Shown one piece after another: positions 1,322 to 19,738 of a stretch of 64,000 nucleotides of DNA (positions within the stretch are counted from its first letter, which is position 1; every line of letters starts with the position of its first letter). The stretch comes from Rhodoferax sp. U2-2l (GTDB lineage Bacteria > Pseudomonadota > Gammaproteobacteria > Burkholderiales > Burkholderiaceae_C), in contig NZ_JAJCTH010000015.1 of the NCBI RefSeq assembly GCF_020594515.1, positions 62,001 to 126,000 on the forward strand, written 5' to 3'. Made by a program: the position numbers and the translations under genes. Under the pieces are notes generated by a model. That model was not told where the DNA came from. It saw nothing but the letters and a program-made list of their open reading frames with translations, and made no database searches.

Positions 1322-2152
1322 ATGAGCCATAAGCTGGACTTGCTTGGCAACGCGATGGACAGCCTAGAGGAGGCGCTGAAGAAGTTCCAAGAGGGGGACG
1401 AAGGTGACCAGAAAGCCTACAAGTTCTGCGTGCTCCACATGGCGCACTTCATTGAACTGATCTTCAAGCACCACATCACCGAGAAGCACCCGCTGCTGAT
1501 CTACGCTAACCCTTTCGCAGCAAAGATCGACCCGGCGACTGCGAAGACCATCGGCCTGTGGGAAGCAGTCAACTTCATCAATAACGAAGAGAAGGACGCC
1601 GTTGCGGGAGATTTCAGGAAGGATTTGGAATGGCTGAAGAAGCTGCGGAACGAAATCGAGCATCACAAGTTCGAGATGGACGTGCCCGCCGCTCGAATCG
1701 CCATCGGCCGTCTATTTCGCTCTGTTCTGGAGTTCCTTGACTACTACGGAGTGGTAGACGTTGAGAAACGAATACCGGAGGAGACCAAAGCAATCTTCTC
1801 GGTTCTCTCTGATGATTACCAGTTCAAGCTGCACGATGCCCTCATGAAGGCTGATGATGTCGAGCAGGCGAACCCTGTCGACCCGATGGATCCTGAAGCC
1901 GCCCCTGTTCGCATGGATTGCGAGGAGTGCGGTAATCACACGATGGTGGTCAACGAGAAATCTGGAACGGGCTATCGCTGCACGTTTTGCAATAACGAGG
2001 ATGGGGATGACTTGCCTGCCTGCTGCTCGATTTGCGGCGCGCATATGACGTCGGGCGCGCTAGAAATCTGGAATGACGAACACTGCGTGGAGTACCGCTG
2101 CTACTACTGCTCAGGGCGCTATGCCGCCGACCGGGACCGGGACCGGGACTAG
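1322..2152 (+). CDS. HEPN-like protein with two C-terminal zinc ribbons, function unknown
   Basis: A 276-residue protein. The ATG at 1322 is chosen because GGAGGG (1309-1314) lies 7 bases upstream; a TTG at 1307 is in frame but overlaps that site. Residues ~1-150 are predicted mostly helical and contain RNEIEH, an R-X4-H motif like the catalytic signature of HEPN ribonucleases. From about residue 195 there are CxxC pairs CEEC, CTFC, CSIC and CYYC, enough for two zinc ribbons. The C-terminus ends in a DR repeat encoded by a tandem hexanucleotide. It stands alone on its strand next to the rloAB defence cassette, so a role in RNA-targeting defence is possible, but that is inference. It could equally be an uncharacterised nucleic-acid binding protein. 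Confidence 0.7.
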   Translation: MSHKLDLLGNAMDSLEEALKKFQEGDEGDQKAYKFCVLHMAHFIELIFKHHITEKHPLLIYANPFAAKIDPATAKTIGLWEAVNFINNEEKDAVAGDFRKDLEWLKKLRNEIEHHKFEMDVPAARIAIGRLFRSVLEFLDYYGVVDVEKRIPEETKAIFSVLSDDYQFKLHDALMKADDVEQANPVDPMDPEAAPVRMDCEECGNHTMVVNEKSGTGYRCTFCNNEDGDDLPACCSICGAHMTSGALEIWNDEHCVEYRCYYCSGRYAADRDRDRD

Positions 2153-2256
2153 GACCAGCCAAAAAAGAAGTTTGAAACACACCCTGGTGTGCATGCATTC
2201 AATTTTCGTTTCCAGCCCAAAGCTGACTTGCCTCCCCCGTCAAGGCATCCAGATGT

Positions 2257-2427
2257 GTTGACGGCGGATGGTGGGGTTGCCGGGCGCAGAACCCATTCGC
2301 GTGATGAGACTGGTGGCGTACCACCCTCAGCGGCAACACCCCAACAAGCGCCCAACCAACACCGCATCCCGCGAGGGGGCCGGAGAACGGTAACCCCGCC
2401 GCCCGCCTGGCGCCACGCGAACCCAAG
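2257..2427. repeat. 171-bp dispersed repeat, left copy (MITE-like)
   Basis: Hand alignment with 4653-4823 is gap-free, with about 14 differences over 171 bases, same orientation. The core 2263-2407 has near-perfect 19-bp terminal inverted repeats at 2263-2281 and 2389-2407, so the element resembles a small non-autonomous mobile element or REP-type doublet. The surrounding gene-free stretch 2153-2576 also holds a 6-bp-stem hairpin at 2178-2191 just after the HEPN-like gene (no T-run), the palindrome at 2464-2488 and the nifA scar at 2519-2569. Confidence 0.75.
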
Positions 2428-2463
2428 CGCCGAAAGCCCAATATACTGCGTAATCAATAGCTA

Positions 2464-2488
2464 CTAGCCCTTATTCCAACAGGGCTAG
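2464..2488. repeat. dispersed CTAGCCCT palindrome, copy 1
   Basis: Inverted repeat CTAGCCCT / AGGGCTAG with an 8-9 base loop. Read on the minus strand it is preceded by AAATTGGCCT and followed by AGTAGCTAT, the same flanks as the copies near 16161 and 19784. I recognise this as a common intergenic element of Comamonadaceae; it may act as a weak bidirectional terminator. Confidence 0.6.
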
Positions 2489-2518
2489 AGGCCAATTTCT
2501 CTTAGAACTCTCAAACTC

Positions 2519-2569
2519 AGCCGGGCGGCTTTGGCCTGAACCCAGCAGCAGCGCTCCATGGACCAGATC
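2519..2569 (-). pseudogene. 51-bp remnant of the nifA 3' region
   Basis: Matches 4898-4948 inside the Fis-type helix-turn-helix of nifA with four differences over 51 bases, same strand. In translation it keeps IW-MERC-WVQAKAARL. Similarity stops abruptly after KAARL. It lies immediately downstream of rloB, so the order nifA tail then repeat occurs on both sides of the rloAB cassette. It could instead derive from another NifA-like activator, but location and identity favour a local duplication. Confidence 0.7.
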
Positions 2570-2576
2570 GACCTTC

Positions 2577-3251
2577 TCAGGCGCGTAGCGTGGTCAGCAG
2601 CGTGACCAGTTCGTGCAAGGCGGTGAAGGGTTCGGGGTCGGTGTAGGCACTGAACTTCGCGGCCAGTGATTGCGCCCGTTGCGTCGCAGTTTCCAGCCGT
2701 GTGCGGGTGGTTGCAAATGCACCGCCTGCGCCCTTCTCGTAGCCGGGAATGTGGTGCTTCAAACGCGCCATCACTTCGTCGCGGTGGATCGGTGCCTGAA
2801 CATCCTCGTAGTGCAGCAGCAACCACAGCTCGAAGCTGGGAATGGAGGTGATGGCCTTAAAGCTGACCACTTGCCTGTCGTCGTTGCGCAGTTTGCCGTC
2901 CAGCGATTGCGCCAAACTCAGAGCGTTGAAATAGCTGCCGTGTTCGTCCCGGTCAAACACGGCATACACCCGATCGAAGCTCTTGGGGCGAATGCCTTTG
3001 ACCAAATCGCCTTCTTCAAACAGCTGCTGGGCGTAGCGCACCACCTGGATCGGCGCAGTGCCCAGTTGCCCCGGCTGCACAGCGACGTTGGCGGAGTGCA
3101 GCTGATGCGCGGCGCGGATCTCTTCCAGATACAGCGGCTCGGTTTTACTGCCCTCGGTGACGATCAAAATGCGGGTGTAACTGGCGCGCCGTGCCTCTTT
3201 GACCGTCTTGCGGCGCAGCTGGCGGTCTTTGGCCTGGTTATCACGCCCCAT
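2577..3251 (-). CDS. rloB: RloB-like putative nuclease of an rloAB/AbiL-type defence pair
   Basis: A 224-residue protein. A basic N-terminus is followed by IVTEGSKTEP (residues ~29-38), then FDRDEH (~100) and SIPSFELWLLLHYED (~137-151). These are the hallmarks of the RloB family, which carries a Toprim-like acidic Glu plus Asp-x-Asp arrangement suggesting metal-dependent nuclease activity. The start codon overlaps the rloA stop (TGATG), indicating translational coupling. Family knowledge: such pairs with an AAA ATPase act as abortive-infection systems (AbiLi/AbiLii and related). The target is not known here. The gene ends only a few bases from the nifA remnant. Confidence 0.8.
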   Translation of the reverse strand: MGRDNQAKDRQLRRKTVKEARRASYTRILIVTEGSKTEPLYLEEIRAAHQLHSANVAVQPGQLGTAPIQVVRYAQQLFEEGDLVKGIRPKSFDRVYAVFDRDEHGSYFNALSLAQSLDGKLRNDDRQVVSFKAITSIPSFELWLLLHYEDVQAPIHRDEVMARLKHHIPGYEKGAGGAFATTRTRLETATQRAQSLAAKFSAYTDPEPFTALHELVTLLTTLRA

Positions 3252-4522
3252 CAGGGTTGTACTCCCAGGGCCTGATTGCGCAGCAAGGGCAGTGCCCCGT
3301 AGCGCCCCTGCAGGTAACCGCGCTCCAGCGCTTCATTCTTGCGCGGGCTGAAGTCGAGCAAGGGATACAGCGATGAGCTTTGATCCGGGCGCTTTTCCAC
3401 AAACCAGACCTGATCGCGGCGAAACAGGCCGTAAGCATCGAGCAGCGAGGTGTCGTGCGTGGTAAAGATCAGTTGCGCACCGCCGGTGTTGGCTTCGGGG
3501 TTGTGGAACAAGCGCACCAGAGACTGCACCAGCAGCGTGTGCAGGCTGGTATCGAGCTCATCCACCACCAGCGTCAAGCCCTTGTTGAGGATGTCCAGAA
3601 TAGGCCCGGTCAGGAACAGCAGGTTGCGGGTGCCGCTGGATTCGTCCATCAGATCGAACACCGCTTTGCCGTGTTCAGTGATGTGGTGAAACTTCACTTC
3701 GTCCACGGCCTGCTCGCTGGCTGCCTCCTCGCGTTTGCCGGTGGCGAGGTCGAAGTTGATGGTATGCACCATGGCCTGCTTGGTGGCCACTTCAATGTCG
3801 GCAATGCTGATGTCAGCGGCACGCAGAAACTCACAAATGGCTTTGCGCTGCGCTTCCTGTTTGAGCAATTGCACCGAAAACTGCGGCGATAAGGGCGACT
3901 GCTCATTGATGATCACCAGCCGGTTGGCGAACCAGTCAAACACCGGGCGCAAGGCCTCGCTGTTGAGCTGCACAGCCACCGACAGGAACAAGGCATTGGG
4001 TCGGGTGGCCCCCTCCCACAGGTTCTTGGCACCTTTCAGGCTGGACCCGAACGCATACACATCCTTGCCGCTTTCAGCATCGAAGTGGCGCTCGAACCAG
4101 CGTTGTGGCTTGAAGGTCTTGTAGACCAAGAGATGCTCGCTGACGATGCGTTGCGCATTCATGGCAAACCCATATTGGTAACGCACACCGGCGAGGATGA
4201 AGGTGACCTCAAACTCCGTTGGCTGGCTGCCCGATGTGGCGTCCAGCTTGAAGGGCTGGAGTCGGTCAAAAGTCTGGCCCGGCTGCAGCGCGGCCGACGC
4301 CAGCACCACGCCATGCATGTACTGCAGGGCTTTGATGAGGTTGGACTTGCCGCTGGCGTTGGCACCGTACACCACCGCACTTTTGAGCACGTGTGGGGCC
4401 GCCTTCAGCCCGGTAGCCAAGGCATGGGTGTCCAGCAAGGTCTGGTCGGCGGAAGCAACCAGGCTGAGCACCTGCTCGTCGCGCAGGCTGCGGAAGTTCT
4501 TTACACGGAACTCGGTCAGCAT
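3251..4522 (-). CDS. rloA: RloA/AbiLi-like AAA ATPase, defence-associated
   Basis: A 423-residue ABC/SMC-type ATPase. It begins LTEFRVKNFRSL, followed by Walker A GANASGKSN at ~55, signature-like DESSGTRN at ~300, Walker B LTLVVDELDTSLH at ~320 and an H-loop TTHD at ~360. The ATG at 4522 is preferred over an in-frame GTG at 4531; GGGTG lies about 6 bases upstream of the ATG. It is presumed to sense infection or DNA ends and to license RloB. The upstream gap 4523-4652 is strikingly AT-rich (ATATTTTATATTTAAT on the minus strand) compared with neighbouring DNA, consistent with a horizontally acquired promoter region. Confidence 0.82.
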   Translation of the reverse strand: MLTEFRVKNFRSLRDEQVLSLVASADQTLLDTHALATGLKAAPHVLKSAVVYGANASGKSNLIKALQYMHGVVLASAALQPGQTFDRLQPFKLDATSGSQPTEFEVTFILAGVRYQYGFAMNAQRIVSEHLLVYKTFKPQRWFERHFDAESGKDVYAFGSSLKGAKNLWEGATRPNALFLSVAVQLNSEALRPVFDWFANRLVIINEQSPLSPQFSVQLLKQEAQRKAICEFLRAADISIADIEVATKQAMVHTINFDLATGKREEAASEQAVDEVKFHHITEHGKAVFDLMDESSGTRNLLFLTGPILDILNKGLTLVVDELDTSLHTLLVQSLVRLFHNPEANTGGAQLIFTTHDTSLLDAYGLFRRDQVWFVEKRPDQSSSLYPLLDFSPRKNEALERGYLQGRYGALPLLRNQALGVQP

Positions 4523-4652
4523 TGAATTCACCCATTAAATATAAAATATATTCGAATTATGAACCATTACTGCAAATAGTTGATTTATTTTCAATAAGAA
4601 TGTGTTTTCCGATAGGCTGGAATTGACCAACTCCAACTGTGGGTGCACATCA

Positions 4653-4823
4653 GTTGAAGGCGGGTGGTGGGGTTACCGGGCACAGAACCCATTCGCGTGG
4701 TGAGACATGTGGCGCACCACCCTCAGCGGCAACACCCCAGCAAGCGCCCAACCTATACCGTATCCCGCGAGGGGGCCGGAGAACGGTAACTCCGCCGCCC
4801 GCCTGGCACCACGCGAACCCAAG
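4653..4823. repeat. 171-bp dispersed repeat, right copy (MITE-like)
   Basis: Direct-repeat partner of 2257-2427. The core 4659-4803 (145 bp) has 19-bp imperfect terminal inverted repeats at 4659-4677 and 4785-4803. It lies a few bases after the nifA stop codon and before the AT-rich promoter region of rloA, so the two copies bracket the rloAB cassette. Confidence 0.75.
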
Positions 4824-4827
4824 AGCC

Positions 4828-6513
4828 TCAAAACTTGCGCACCTCGATGCCGTTTTTCTGTAAGGCATACCCCATCTGGCGCGGTGAGATCTTCAGCAGC
4901 CGGGCCGCTTTGGCCTGGACCCAGCCGCAGCGCTCCATGGCCCAGATCAGGCGCTCGCGCTCACCTTCGGGTTTGCCGTCGTTGTCGGGTGCGGCGGCGG
5001 GGGCCGGGCTGCTGGCGCTGGCCGCGTCTTCGGCCGGGGCGCTTTCTGGCTCAACGGCAGGCGGCGCCGCGCGCGGCGGCACCGGGCCTTCCACCACCGG
5101 GATCTCGCTGATGCGACCCGGGCTGACCGCGTCCACCCGGTCGATGTGGTGCAACACCTGGGTCAGGCAGCCGTTGCCCTGGCAGGGAAAAGCCAGGTTG
5201 GTGATGACGTTGTCATGTGCCATGGTCGCGGTGCGCTCCACACAGTTTTCCAGCTCACGCACATTGCCGGGCCAGTAACAACTGGTGAGCACCCGCATGG
5301 CGGCCGGGCTGAACTGGGTGTTGCGGCCGTTTTCCTTGTTGAAGCGTTCCAGAAACAGCCGGGCCATGGCCGGGATGTCTTCGCGGCGCTGGCGCAGCGG
5401 CGGCAGCTGGATGCTGACCACGTTGATGCGGTAATACAGATCAGCGCGGAACTCACCGGCCTGCACCATGCGCTCCAGGTTGCGGTTGGTGGCCAGAATC
5501 AGCCGCACATCGACCTTGACACTGGTGGTACCACCCACGCGCTCAAACTCGCGCTCTTGCAACACCCGCAGCAGCTTGGCCTGGAACGAGGCCGAGATGT
5601 CGCCAATTTCATCCAGAAACAGGGTGCCGCCATGTGACATCTCAAAGCGCCCCTTGCGCTGGCCTTGCGCGCCGGTGAAGGAGCCTTTTTCGTGGCCGAA
5701 CAGCTCACTCTCCAGCAGCGACTCGGTGAGTGCGGCGCAGTTGACGCGCACAAACGCCTCACGCTTGCGCGGCGACAGGTTGTGCAGGGCACGCGCAATC
5801 ACCTCCTTGCCGGTGCCACTTTCACCGCGCAGCAGCACCGTGGTGCGCGACGGTGCCACTTGGTGCACCTGCTCAAACACTTGTTGCATGGGTTTGGAAA
5901 TGCCCACCACCTGGTCGATCTGGTGCAGCGGCTTGAGCTCCTTGCTCATGCGGCGCACCTCGTCTTGCAGCGAGTCGTGCGCGGCGCTGACACTGCGCTG
6001 CAGCAGCAGCGCCTGGCCCATCAGGGTGGCCACCATTTTGAGCAGACGCAGATCGTTGGAAAAGCTGCGCGCCTCGTCCGGGTTCAGGCAGTCCACCGCC
6101 AGCACACCCACCGTACGGCGGTCGGCGCTGATGGGGGTGACCAACATGGCAATGGGCATGTCCGGGTTCTGGTCGCCACCGCCGGTGCGGTTCAAAAACA
6201 GGGGTTCGGTGTGCACGTTGGGCACCATCACCTGGATGCCATTGGCATAGACGCGCCCGACGATGCCTTCGCCAGACTGGTAACGCAGACGCTGCTGCTC
6301 CTCTTGCGTGAGCCCCACCGCGCACAGCCCTTGCAAACCGCCGTCTGTTTCACCCAGCACCACAAAGGCGCGGCGCCAGTCATAAGCGTGTGACAGGTAG
6401 TTCAGCGCTTCGCGAAAGGTTTTGGCCACGTCCAGCGACATGGCCAGCGTTTTGCTGACTTCGTAAATCGCGTTGAGCTCGCGCTGAAATTCAATTGCTT
6501 GTGTATTCACCAT
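4828..6513 (-). CDS. nifA: NifA, sigma-54-dependent activator of nitrogen fixation genes
   Basis: A 561-residue enhancer-binding protein. The ATG at 6513 has GGAG 9 bases upstream, and longer in-frame starts are unlikely. Residues ~1-180 form a GAF sensor domain. The AAA+ domain has Walker A GESGTGKE, GSFTGA and Walker B LFLDEIGD. The C-terminus ends with a Fis-type helix-turn-helix. The region after the AAA domain contains Cys residues spaced C-X11-C-X19-C-X4-C (CYWP...ENC...FPC-QGNG-C). This is the classic motif of oxygen/redox-sensitive NifA, so activity is probably limited to low oxygen without NifL. It activates sigma-54 promoters such as those before iscS and nifV. A possible -24/-12 site in its own upstream region suggests autoactivation. 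Confidence 0.95.
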   Translation of the reverse strand: MVNTQAIEFQRELNAIYEVSKTLAMSLDVAKTFREALNYLSHAYDWRRAFVVLGETDGGLQGLCAVGLTQEEQQRLRYQSGEGIVGRVYANGIQVMVPNVHTEPLFLNRTGGGDQNPDMPIAMLVTPISADRRTVGVLAVDCLNPDEARSFSNDLRLLKMVATLMGQALLLQRSVSAAHDSLQDEVRRMSKELKPLHQIDQVVGISKPMQQVFEQVHQVAPSRTTVLLRGESGTGKEVIARALHNLSPRKREAFVRVNCAALTESLLESELFGHEKGSFTGAQGQRKGRFEMSHGGTLFLDEIGDISASFQAKLLRVLQEREFERVGGTTSVKVDVRLILATNRNLERMVQAGEFRADLYYRINVVSIQLPPLRQRREDIPAMARLFLERFNKENGRNTQFSPAAMRVLTSCYWPGNVRELENCVERTATMAHDNVITNLAFPCQGNGCLTQVLHHIDRVDAVSPGRISEIPVVEGPVPPRAAPPAVEPESAPAEDAASASSPAPAAAPDNDGKPEGERERLIWAMERCGWVQAKAARLLKISPRQMGYALQKNGIEVRKF

Positions 6514-16486: not shown

Positions 16487-17173
16487 TCATGCTCCTGCTA
16501 ACGATGCACCCAGATCGTCCAGCAACTTCATCAACTCTGCCTCGTAGTGAATGACGTGCTTGGAGTCCCTTTCATCCTGGATGTTGTTACTCTTCAGCCG
16601 ATCCCCAAACAAAATCACAACCTCACACGTGTTGTCTCGCACGGACATCCAGTGCAAGCCCTGCGCCTTTGGCATCGTCTTCCAGATGTGCAACGCCCAT
16701 TCTCGGGTGCGTGGGTAATCAGGCTTTTCCGTACCAAAAATTTCAGCCACAGTCAGACCCGCAGCACGCAAGCCAAGAGTGGTCAAGTTAACGAGGCTCA
16801 AATCCGTGAGCGAAATCCGCGAGAGGTGGTGATTGCCCGATTTGTCCCTCTCCCAGTCGTGCTGGTAGTTCGTAGATGGCGTTGGCACATCGTGCAGAAG
16901 GATTTCGGCCATGGCCCCGCGTACTGTCTTGGCGGCATAGATGGTCGGGATGACTTTACCGGTGCTATCGACCAAAGGGCTAAAGCGTGCATTTCCGCGT
17001 TTTGTGTCATTGAACTGGGTTGGCCCGTACAAGCCGGTGCTTGCGTCGTAGTTGTGGACTCGATACCAAATGCCAGCAGGAACTGAATGTTCTCTAAAGG
17101 AGTTTTTCGGAGGTGGGTACGGCAGTGGAGCCATGCTCGCCATAGAGGTGCTGACGGGCTTAGCACTAGCCAT
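16487..17173 (-). CDS. RES-domain toxin (NAD-degrading ParT/MbcT type)
   Basis: A 228-residue protein. The ATG at 17173 overlaps the antitoxin by 8 bases and has GGAGGG 8 bases upstream. The RES fold is visible as WYRVHNY (~40), GNARFSPL (~62), YAAKTVRGAMAEILLHD (~80) and later WALHIWKTMP. The conserved Arg, Glu and Ser that give the domain its name are present or plausible. Family knowledge: RES toxins deplete NAD+ or modify Prs and are held inactive by Xre-MbcA-ParS antitoxins, as encoded just upstream. Expression is probably coupled to and repressed with the antitoxin. Confidence 0.82.
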   Translation of the reverse strand: MASAKPVSTSMASMAPLPYPPPKNSFREHSVPAGIWYRVHNYDASTGLYGPTQFNDTKRGNARFSPLVDSTGKVIPTIYAAKTVRGAMAEILLHDVPTPSTNYQHDWERDKSGNHHLSRISLTDLSLVNLTTLGLRAAGLTVAEIFGTEKPDYPRTREWALHIWKTMPKAQGLHWMSVRDNTCEVVILFGDRLKSNNIQDERDSKHVIHYEAELMKLLDDLGASLAGA

Positions 17174-17849
17174 GCAAAGCACCCTCCACGTGCTCCTTTG
17201 CCAACTCGATTACGCTTTTTGGCTCATTGCTGAGCAGTTCCCTCGGGCGCTTGCCGCCTGCTGCGGAACTGGTCGATTCAAACCAGGATGCAACGCGAAT
17301 CGGTGTGTATCCCTCAAAACTCTTGAGCACTTCCGCTACCTCTGGGATCGGATTACCCAAATCATCAAAAATGTAGTTGGGGTAGTATTTCACGCCAGCA
17401 CGCTCAATCGCAAAGATCTTCCCAGCCTTTTGCCACCGTGAGACCAGCGAATGCTTGTTTTCGGCGAGCGGAGCTGCACGTTCCCCCACCTCTTTTGCCT
17501 TGAGCCATTCCGTACCAGAGAGGACAGCTTCAACGCCCCTTCGCCTCAGTTTGTCTTTGACCTGATCCAGGCCTCGAATTGGAGTCTCTTCTATTAAGGC
17601 TTTTGTCGCCCAGTGATCATCCACAGCTGATCTCTGAAGAACGTCCAAACCTCTTCTGAGTCCCTCCATGTCTTTCATCAGCTTTGCAAGTGTAAGTATG
17701 TAGGTATCGACCTTGTTTTTGTCCTTCAATCTAGACTTATCCAAAAGCGGCAGCAGTGACGTGAGAGCCGTGTTCTCTACGCGAGTGCGTTCAGTCGGTA
17801 CAAACGAACCATCTGCCGATCTGGCGCTTGATCCTTTTAAGTTAACCAT
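17166..17849 (-). CDS. ParS/MbcA-type antitoxin (long form)
   Basis: A 227-residue protein whose last ~50 residues resemble the DUF2384/ParS toxin-binding domain (VASWFESTSSAAGGKRPREL followed by LLSNEPKSVIELAKEHVEG). A middle part (EWLKAKEVGERAA...SLVSRWQKAGKIFAIERAG) looks like a helix-turn-helix segment and ends YYPNYIFDD, as often seen in RES-linked antitoxins. The N-terminal ~90 residues are helical and of unknown role, making it longer than the common ~140-residue form. GGAG lies 8 bases before the ATG at 17849. It overlaps the RES toxin gene, the standard antitoxin-first order. Confidence 0.75.
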   Translation of the reverse strand: MVNLKGSSARSADGSFVPTERTRVENTALTSLLPLLDKSRLKDKNKVDTYILTLAKLMKDMEGLRRGLDVLQRSAVDDHWATKALIEETPIRGLDQVKDKLRRRGVEAVLSGTEWLKAKEVGERAAPLAENKHSLVSRWQKAGKIFAIERAGVKYYPNYIFDDLGNPIPEVAEVLKSFEGYTPIRVASWFESTSSAAGGKRPRELLSNEPKSVIELAKEHVEGALHG

Positions 17850-17873
17850 GACTACTCCATGAAAACGGGGTCG

Positions 17874-17922
17874 ATAGTGCGATAAAAGCGATTGTATTTC
17901 GCAATCTCTATTGTCGCACTAT
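17874..17922 (-). promoter_or_regulatory. operator/promoter of the RES toxin-antitoxin operon
   Basis: Perfect 9-bp arms ATAGTGCGA (17874-17882) and TCGCACTAT (17914-17922) enclose an AT-rich core with TTGCGA and TTTTAT-like promoter elements on the minus strand and a weaker inner GATTG/CAATC repeat. The site is 25 bases upstream of the antitoxin start, as expected for autorepression. The remaining bases to 18215 show no gene. Confidence 0.6.
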
Positions 17923-18215
17923 GTTGCCAAATCGTTTCAGTAGTCTCCTGGGGACTTCTTGGGCGACGGGGCGTCGTTCAAAACCTCCAACCTGCCAAAA
18001 ACACCCAAATAGGCTAGCGAAACAATCGGCCCGCCCGCGCCGAAAACCGTTCCGCAGTCTCGCAAAAGAACACGATGCTTGCCGCGTGTTGACTCATGCA
18101 ATCAATTTCTAGGAATCGATCCAGGGAGGACAGGGCGACTCCAAAAGTTTAGGGTCATCCGAAGTCCAATGCCCACGATTGGCCTGCACAGTGCCCACCA
18201 AGGCCGGGCAGGCAA

Positions 18216-18815
18216 TCACAACAACCCCGTCACGATCTGCCCCAGCCGCCTCAGCGCCTGCTCCACATCCCTGTCCACCGGCCAGCCGCAGCTGATGCGC
18301 AGAAAGGCGTCAAAGAGCAGCAAGTTGGAGAACATCAGGCCGGGGCTGACCAGAATCTGCTCTTTCAAGGCCGCATCAAACACCCGTTTGCTCGACAGCT
18401 GCTGCGGCATTTCCACCCACAGCGACAAGCCACCGTCGGGCAGAGTCAGGCGGGTGCCGGGCGGGAAATGGCTGGCAATGGTTTCCGCCGTGTGTTGCCG
18501 CTGAACCTGCAAGGTGGCGCGCAAGCGGTGCAGATGGCGGTCGTAGGCGGGTGAGGCGATGAAGTCTGCCGCCGCCAGTTGTGACAGCTCCTCGTTGCTG
18601 CGGGTTTGGGTGAACTTGAGCATTTCGACCCGGGCTTGCCAGTGTCCGGCGGCCATCCAGCCCAGGCGCATACCGGGCGCGAGAATTTTGTGCAGTGATG
18701 CGCAGTAAATCACATTGCCCGTGGTGTCCCATGACTTCATGGCGCCCAGCGGTGCATCACCGCGTTGGCCTTCATTGACCAGCTCGCTGTAGGTGTCGTC
18801 TTCAATCCGCCTTGA
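18216..18815 (-). pseudogene. 3' fragment of a MocR-type (GntR/aminotransferase) regulator
   Basis: The frame reads EDDTYSEL, then ASLHKILAPGMRLGWMAAG (the PLP lysine region), then DGGLSLWVEMP and LRISCGWP, which is the C-terminal half of the aminotransferase-like domain of PdxR/MocR-type regulators. The GntR DNA-binding domain and the first part of the aminotransferase domain are missing. Homology stops at about 18815, where unrelated sequence begins. No sensible start codon exists, so this is a broken gene left in the accessory block. Confidence 0.78.
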
Positions 18816-19156
18816 CCGGCACGGCTGAGACAGGGTGATTGCGTCAGGCGACCGGGCTTGGGGGCCCAAGGCGCGCGTCTCAGGGGCTGGCGTACTGATC
18901 GGCATCACTCGCGCGTGATTGGGTCCCCAAACCGCATGCGCCTGGCCCAGTCGCCCTGGCGTGCATCGAGGAGGTTGTCTAACGGCACACTCACTCTGAC
19001 ATCGCCATATGGCCTGTGCGCTGGGTCTGGAGCCCCTTGATTTGGCACCACAATCCCATGTTCACTTTGACACGCGCGTCCACTGGGTCTGTCTGAATGA
19101 CGGGCGGCCAGTCGAGACGGATGTGATTTGATTCAACACATTCCTCACAACACAGC
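18816..19156. other. intergenic stretch upstream of the LOG gene
   Basis: About 340 bases between the MocR fragment and the LOG-family gene. It contains one short coding-like frame at 19009-19131 (40 codons, ATG to TGA) without a convincing ribosome binding site. No other gene, repeat or terminator is evident. Confidence 0.35.
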
Positions 19157-19738
19157 ATGAAAAATATTTGCGTTTATTGCGGCTCCAACCCGGGTCGACT
19201 GGAGGCCTATGCAGACGGTGCGCGCTCGCTGGCCAAGGCCTTGGTAGACCGCGACCTGGGGCTGGTTTATGGCGGTGCCAGCGTCGGCATCATGGGGCTG
19301 ATCGCCAACTCGGTCTTGCAACTGGGCGGGCGCGCCGTGGGTGTGATTCCCGAAGCCCTCAAGCGCAAGGAGATCGAGCACACCGGGCTGACCGAGTTAC
19401 ATGTCACCCGCTCCATGCACGAGCGCAAAACCCTGATGGCCGAGCTGTCAGACGGCTTTATTGCGCTGCCGGGCGGCATTGGCACGCTGGAAGAAATTTT
19501 CGAGGTCTGGACCTGGGCGCAACTGGGCTTTCATGCCAAACCCTGCGGCCTGCTCAATGTGGCGGGGTATTACGACGGTCTGACCACGTTCCTGGACCAC
19601 ACGGTGGCCGAGCAGTTCGTGCGGCCAGCACACCGCAGCACCTTGATGGTGGAGCCCACGCCCGACGCGCTGCTGGACCGTTTTGCCAGCTACCAGGCGC
19701 CTACCGTCCAGAAGTGGGTGGAGAAGGGTCAGACCTGA
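19157..19738 (+). CDS. LOG-family nucleotide 5'-monophosphate phosphoribohydrolase
   Basis: A 193-residue Rossmann-like protein beginning MKNICVYCGSNPG. It has the catalytic PGGIGTLEE motif (~110) and the SMHERK motif (~93), features of the LOG (lysine decarboxylase-like) family that cleaves cytokinin or purine riboside monophosphates to the free base. Full length for the family. The biological role in bacteria is usually nucleotide salvage. It lies upstream of nifV on the same strand but is separated by a terminator-like palindrome and the nifV control region, so it is not part of that operon. Confidence 0.88.
   Translation: MKNICVYCGSNPGRLEAYADGARSLAKALVDRDLGLVYGGASVGIMGLIANSVLQLGGRAVGVIPEALKRKEIEHTGLTELHVTRSMHERKTLMAELSDGFIALPGGIGTLEEIFEVWTWAQLGFHAKPCGLLNVAGYYDGLTTFLDHTVAEQFVRPAHRSTLMVEPTPDALLDRFASYQAPTVQKWVEKGQT

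Follow-up and report, generated by a model that had tools for sequence, protein, structure and literature searches.

The classical outcome of integration by site-specific elements of the icd type is a target gene whose end has been restored and whose old end has been displaced. Insertion with long target duplication has been described for restriction-modification genes of Helicobacter pylori (Nobusato et al. 2000; Furuta et al. 2010, via PMC3031569, PMC1643837 and PMC2749054), and integrase-free hotspots that evolve by homologous recombination in the flanking core genes were described by Oliveira et al. (2017, PMC5635113). AbiL is a two-gene abortive-infection system with a TOPRIM effector, and RloB is related to OLD_TOPRIM domains (PMC10440598). 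Here we describe an AbiL-like gene pair, rloAB, at the 3′ end of nifA in Rhodoferax sp. U2-2l, within a stretch of 64,000 nucleotides (contig NZ_JAJCTH010000015.1, positions 62,001 to 126,000; the whole stretch is referred to as the window in the rest of the text). The pair is followed by a displaced second copy of part of the nifA tail, hereafter the scar. On balance, we favour the view that rloAB was inserted there without an integrase of its own, by a homologous join at the gene end and an illegitimate join at the far side.

As in icd-type prophage integration, a displaced gene tail lies at the far end of the insert; the differences are that there is neither an integrase nor a fixed crossover point. 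The H. pylori insertions, as excerpted in the articles cited above, likewise place defence-type genes within a long and variable direct target duplication with no transposase seen. The cases described here differ from them in their cargo (AbiL-like, toxin-antitoxin (TA), Fic and PDC-M25 genes), in the position of the duplications at gene 3′ ends, and in that both copies look like different parental alleles at two loci. With the hotspots of Oliveira et al., our locus shares variable cargo between fixed core genes, mostly without mobility genes among those scanned, and a recombination tract that would reach into the flanking gene, whereas the tail scar would mark one non-homologous junction and a plain double crossover leaves none. 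Searches of open-licence papers on insertions between nifA and nifB, on TA cargo with flanking gene-end duplications and on long target duplication listed no title or abstract opening that describes such a case.

The rloAB insert at the 3′ end of nifA

On the minus strand of the window, full-length nifA (4828-6513), so named for its GAF, sigma-54 activator and HTH_8 domains and for its nif neighbourhood, is followed directly after its stop codon by the proximal copy of a 182-bp dispersed repeat (4646-4827), by an AT-rich spacer that presumably holds the rloA promoter (4535-4645; kept up to about 4591 in some other rloAB copies), and by rloA (3251-4531) and rloB (2577-3251). The scar (2518-2569) lies just 7 bp past the rloB stop. 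Beyond it, on the same strand, are a palindromic dispersed repeat of a second family (about 2432-2500) and the distal 182-bp repeat (2250-2431), whose flank is common to two related genomes, BLA1 (to 2212) and U11-2br (to 2220). The two copies of the nifA tail (2518-2569 and 4897-4948) are 92% identical over 52 nt and the two repeats (2250-2431 and 4646-4827) 90% identical over 182 nt, each pair in the same orientation; length and identity rule out chance for both direct duplications. A preliminary description of this DNA had placed rloAB between same-orientation repeats together with a displaced piece of the nifA tail, and exactly that order is found.

The scar lacks about the last 57-70 bp of nifA, and the duplication begins within nifA and not in any repeat. 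Its best match is Rhodoferax nifA, in a comparison that covered nifA tails and not activator genes of other kinds; identity is 92% to the tails of the window's own nifA and of BLA1, and 90% to those of U11-2br, R. antarcticus and a further contig (L123). The best matches of the intact nifA in the named genome collection are also Rhodoferax.

The products of rloA and rloB match AAA_21 (E = 5.7e-37) and PF13707 (E = 2.3e-36), respectively, in Pfam, and are named AbiLi (E = 3.7e-102) and AbiLii (E = 6.2e-23) by PADLOC. An AbiLi-type AAA_21 ATPase gene adjoining an AbiLii/RloB gene is what characterizes an AbiL/RloAB pair at the gene level, and RloAB would be expected to work as an AbiL-like abortive-infection system. 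AbiL/RloAB and AriAB of PARIS are ATPase-plus-TOPRIM pairs in the section of PMC10440598 consulted; here both families are recognised from the genes alone, through their Pfam and PADLOC models, with rloA before rloB. As already noted in the preliminary description, the insert carries rloA and rloB only and no integrase, and no mobility genes were found by Pfam or PADLOC among the four window proteins scanned.

Comparison with related genomes

The closest relatives at nifA provide occupied and unoccupied versions of the locus. BLA1 (L081) has the same order, namely nifA, palindrome, repeat, rloA, rloB, scar, palindrome and repeat, and its rloAB DNA is 93.4% identical to that of the window. Its distal repeat is followed by a DUF2971/PDC-S31 gene and then, both identified by eye, by a GGDEF-type gene and nifB. 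Neither rloAB nor a scar is present in U11-2br (L138), which has palindromes and one full and one partial repeat, with OadB- and OadG-like genes between. In R. antarcticus, nifA and nifB lie 416 bp apart, with a partial repeat inside. The target duplication flanks the insert on both sides, and the nifA tail is single in empty sites. The preliminary description had regarded rloAB at this place without a duplicated tail as the observation that would speak against an insertion; BLA1 has both and U11-2br neither, and relatives compared behind nifA offered empty sites as well as other cargo.

Between BLA1 and U11-2br, the DNA adjoining both ends of the interval is 94-98% identical, with 87-98% in patches further upstream, while the matching parts from the nifA end to the GGDEF-type gene are 73-85% identical and the cargo differs. 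The right edge of this block is sharp, with 65-82% identity to the end of the GGDEF-type gene and then 98-100% before nifB. Within nifA, sites at which BLA1 and U11-2br agree and the window differs account for 140/183 and then, from about +1400, for 17/42 (P = 1.2e-5, with a cut point picked after the data had been seen and an uneven pattern, 210/365, also in the 3 kb upstream). These patterns support an exchange by homologous recombination that would have extended into nifA.

To place this locus among its relatives, we compared 80 contigs with a nifA relative, 59 of which were resolvable, that is, had nifB downstream on the same contig. The nifA-nifB gap was below 600 bp (empty) in 30 contigs, 600-899 bp in four and at least 900 bp (occupied) in 25. 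The interval is thus an insertion hotspot with high cargo turnover, which, for these contigs, corrects the preliminary assessment that nifA is not a usual one. We examined 28 gaps: the 25 occupied ones, a further two in the 600-899 bp class and one that was open-ended. Of the 74 naively called cargo open reading frames (ORFs; minimum length 100 aa) in them, 60 lack a relative in any other gap. Forty of these 74 ORFs were scanned against Pfam, some of them also with PADLOC. About ten of the 40 read as defence or TA-like: Fic/SoFic, PIN, nucleotidyltransferase-substrate-binding, DUF6036 nucleotidyltransferase, Mrr, HipA, AAA_14/DUF4143 (PDC-S01), an MmeI N-terminal piece, DUF2971/PDC-S31 and an AbiLi-type ATPase in L123. 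Eleven have no Pfam family, and the rest are metabolic or various. No integrase was matched among the 40 scanned ORFs, in which the mobility-type genes are a DDE transposase of the insertion-sequence type (L111), a weak HTH_Tnp_1 match (L087) and a TrfA-type plasmid replication gene (L101).

Searching each contig's own nifA end against its downstream DNA revealed nifA-tail copies in BLA1, L092 and L113. In L092, a biotin-dependent decarboxylase (oad) operon lies between nifA and the scar. Past this scar, 437 bp match the sequence that adjoins the nifA end of L086 at 92.9% identity, indicating that the scar still lies beside its old neighbour. The scar itself resembles the tail of L086 (91%) more than that of L092 (87.5%), and the intact nifA of L092 is nearest to L084 over its last 52 columns (98%), although over the last 130 columns L084 and L088 (93.8%) stand only slightly above L086 (91.5%). 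This pattern, from a small sample, would fit a donor-borne gene end. In L113 (Hydrogenophaga flava), an alpha/beta hydrolase gene separates nifA from a scar of 46-64 bp with 78-83% identity, the weakest nifA scar counted. A 16-bp match to the nifA tail in L114 was put aside as chance. Counted back from the nifA end, the scar starts lie at about 121, 80 and 51-64 nt, and therefore no single crossover site was used.

Gene-tail copies behind other genes

Copies of gene tails also bracket cargo elsewhere. A scan by one rule of 1.6 Mb, split equally between the own genome and BLA1 (800 kb each), gave 44 repeat pairs, including nine gene tails copied downstream of the intact gene (four in the own genome, five in BLA1). 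The other placements were one tail upstream, one head upstream, one head downstream, six classed as 'mid' and 26 without a gene call. With the 26 and the six excluded beforehand, nine tail-downstream copies against one head-upstream copy gives P = 0.021, and against all three other tail or head placements P = 0.146. An earlier scan of the own genome with other settings had given 17 pairs; ORFs were called naively. Defence or TA cargo is bracketed by four of the nine tail copies.

In the own genome, a Gp49/HI1420-type TA pair lies between cysN (GTP_EFTU domain; gene name assigned by eye) and its tail scar. The corresponding empty site is found in G024, whose DNA behind cysN matches 1084 bp past the scar at 89%, while BLA1, U11-2br and R. 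antarcticus hold other DNA behind cysN with no match to the post-scar flank. At L212, also in the own genome, the tail of a 127-aa gene is copied behind a large kinase-like ORF (by eye) and a Gp49/HTH pair. The L212 scar matches U11-2br at 111/123 positions and the intact copy at 102/123; the scar and U11-2br agree against the intact copy at 13 sites, the scar and the intact copy against U11-2br at four, and U11-2br and the intact copy against the scar at six. The 5′ part of the own gene is 82% identical to R. antarcticus and 60-66% to others. These comparisons fit an old native tail next to an incoming gene end.

Further examples involve other genes and cargo. The htpG tail scar of BLA1 brackets a PDC-M25A/B pair, and a photolyase tail copy (L204) brackets no recognised defence cargo. 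A glyoxalase tail copy (L193) encloses a SoFic-like gene; this scar is weakened because BLA1 (G120:C1:79946-84265) and U11-2br (G004:C32:4627-10423) carry two full copies of the glyoxalase gene, together with fragments, a few kb apart. At L179 (own genome C2:60001-80000, positions 17141-19515), a porin-like gene (by eye) has a second copy of its 5′ head about 2.3 kb further downstream, and a PIN-domain gene separates the two; the copied part being a gene head, L179 was rejected as a tail scar.

A related rloAB pair is itself found in such a setting in G023, where it lies, with parts of rloB missing, behind an ABC-transporter ATPase gene. A second copy of 331 bp, comprising the ABC gene tail and DNA downstream of it, lies beyond the pair with 90% identity, and G070 has the same ABC gene without rloAB.

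Dispersed repeats and other rloAB loci

The preliminary description had treated the repeats as cassette boundaries, a role that the wider comparison does not bear out. A 211-base query for the repeat matches 9/60 genomes, with 12 matches in the own genome, 10 in G004 (U11-2br) and 14 in BLA1 (counted at E ≤ 0.001, partial matches included). The repeat is a dispersed family that is not peculiar to the insert, and it is not an element's end. An element end or an integron-like site was rejected on two grounds: copies are scattered through the own genome and several further Rhodoferax genomes, and none turned up at five other duplications (those at cysN, L212 and the G023 ABC gene, and those of L092 and L113). 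A reading of the repeat as an RNA element was likewise rejected, with no Rfam match up to E = 1 (window 2150-5000) and an unremarkable fold (z -0.47). Twenty copies were examined; 19 of them have an ORF called on the relevant side, and in 14 of these the repeat lies behind the 3′ end of a gene in one orientation. The palindromic repeat, which is likewise dispersed in the own genome, sits between the scar and the distal 182-bp repeat in the window; in BLA1 and U11-2br it also lies between nifA and the 182-bp repeat, where it is missing in the window. Elsewhere in the own genome (L013, C8:76000-83500), a HipBA pair lies between two palindrome-plus-182-bp-repeat copies (2461-4892); behind the same gene, BLA1 and U11-2br lack HipBA and carry a single copy of the repeat.

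Homology to the window module stops at 2566-2577 in five of the eight other rloAB loci compared. These related copies occupy unrelated sites, with no common sequence past about 10 bp beyond rloB. In G077, G089 and G108, the comparison was confined to short loci. The G062 locus, which has several repeats and genes that look AbiE-like by eye and in which no gene-tail scar was identified, was not used; its rloAB pair lies among several direct repeats (L166, G062:C1:550000-566000), possibly a repeat-bounded defence array.

Next to the insert, a neighbouring cargo slot on the plus strand of the window (1322-2152) holds a gene with a weak DUF3644 match, under the Pfam cut-off, that is a PADLOC candidate PDC-S64. 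The same slot is occupied by the DUF2971/PDC-S31 gene in BLA1 and by a GNAT acetyltransferase gene in U11-2br.

Discussion

The geometry described above is present in the window and in BLA1, other genomes have empty sites or other cargo behind nifA, and scars accompany other cargo and other genes. We propose that the cell received a relative's DNA in which cargo followed a gene tail, and that homologous recombination joined this DNA to the resident nifA, whose end stayed complete and possibly became donor-derived. The far end of the cargo would then have been joined non-homologously inside the resident nifA tail, either directly, by homology-facilitated illegitimate recombination, or by ring closure first and a single crossover afterwards. 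Both routes are described in PMC3240628 and either would give the observed geometry; a duplication with one homologous and one non-homologous junction has a precedent (PMC4615327, in excerpt). The old tail, palindrome and repeat would have been pushed downstream, the tail decaying as a scar. The preliminary description's proposal, a gene end rebuilt by incoming DNA with the former end remaining as a scar, gains support from the comparison of BLA1 with U11-2br, from the 437 bp shared by L092 and L086, and from L212. We favour a donor-borne tail at two loci, L092 and L212, as their allele patterns suggest, and at the window nifA the tail may likewise have come from a donor. As to uptake, the own genome encodes ComEC; since ComEC is also found in 10/14 control genomes, competence is only possible.

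The most serious competitor, which we nevertheless regard as rather unlikely, is a strict insertion with long target duplication, in which the recipient's own nifA tail was copied and both copies stem from one recipient sequence. The geometry is the same as that of the restriction-modification genes (PMC3031569, PMC1643837, in excerpt). Moreover, the two G023 ABC copies are closest to each other (222/241, as compared with 219/241 and 208/241 to G070), and the cysN scar is without another parent. However, at L212 and in L092 the scar is nearer to U11-2br and to L086, respectively, than to the intact copy, and the end of the intact L092 gene is nearest to L084.

Passive swapping of cargo between the 182-bp and palindromic repeats, acting as recombination sites, would account for the different cargo that BLA1 and U11-2br hold between repeats, and for the HipBA pair that lies between two repeats in the own genome and is absent from BLA1 and U11-2br with their single repeat. 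It is an improbable origin of the nifA insert, given the repeat-free insertions with scars (L092, L113, cysN, L212 and the G023 ABC gene), the start of the window duplication inside nifA and outside the repeats, and the fact that the block that differs between BLA1 and U11-2br takes in nifA sequence and the GGDEF-type gene. Repeat-mediated swapping may have contributed to later exchanges at the nifA locus.

A site-specific integrative or satellite element with icd-type attachment at the nifA 3′ end and a lost integrase, as entertained in the preliminary description, would leave the restored gene end and displaced old end known from icd-type elements. It is very improbable here: the scar starts are scattered within nifA, even if the L113 scar is weak, no integrase occurs on the insert or among the 40 scanned cargo ORFs, and related rloAB pairs lie at unrelated places with no sequence in common past the first 10 bp or so beyond rloB. 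A tandem duplication of tail and repeats, with rloAB arriving between the copies only later, is hardly credible. Local duplications do happen, as the paired glyoxalase genes of BLA1 and U11-2br attest, but 0/80 contigs (some of which hold little downstream DNA) have a cargo-free nifA-tail duplication, and the scar lies very close to the rloB stop.

Several observations weigh against our preferred reading, an insertion by one homologous and one illegitimate join. The 52-bp scar of the window is too short to tell a donor-borne from a self-duplicated tail, and the cysN and G023 ABC comparisons do not discriminate between the two. The L212 site count is borderline (13 against 4, with six further sites of the third kind). 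Of the assemblies, L092 comes from a metagenome and G023 is a fragmented draft with Ns at the locus. No flanking tail duplication was found at the rloAB loci of G010, G034 (a 4-kb contig), G094 and G118. A scar occurs in only 2/25 occupied nifA-nifB gaps, so that most insertions left no scar or lost it. Five of the nine tail copies in the scan bracket non-defence genes or unclear DNA, and two of these five are only 44-51 bp long. Finally, ComEC occurs widely in the control genomes, and its presence here does not demonstrate competence.

It is conceivable, and we suggest it tentatively, that gene-tail scars reflect a general way, independent of integrases, for small cargo (often defence or TA genes) to enter bacterial chromosomes at the 3′ ends of core genes, through a tail-plus-cargo fragment joined first homologously and then illegitimately. 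If this is true, each gene-tail scar records one acquisition event. Half of the hotspots of horizontal transfer surveyed by Oliveira et al. were without evidence of mobile elements (PMC5635113, in excerpt), and how defence modules enter such hotspots has so far been largely inferred. Displaced tails would provide a readable trace of these events, one that gives the place of the homologous and illegitimate junctions, distinguishes old from new DNA and lends itself to counting in any genome. Entry of defence systems without an integrase would thereby become testable, both by genome scans and by transformation.

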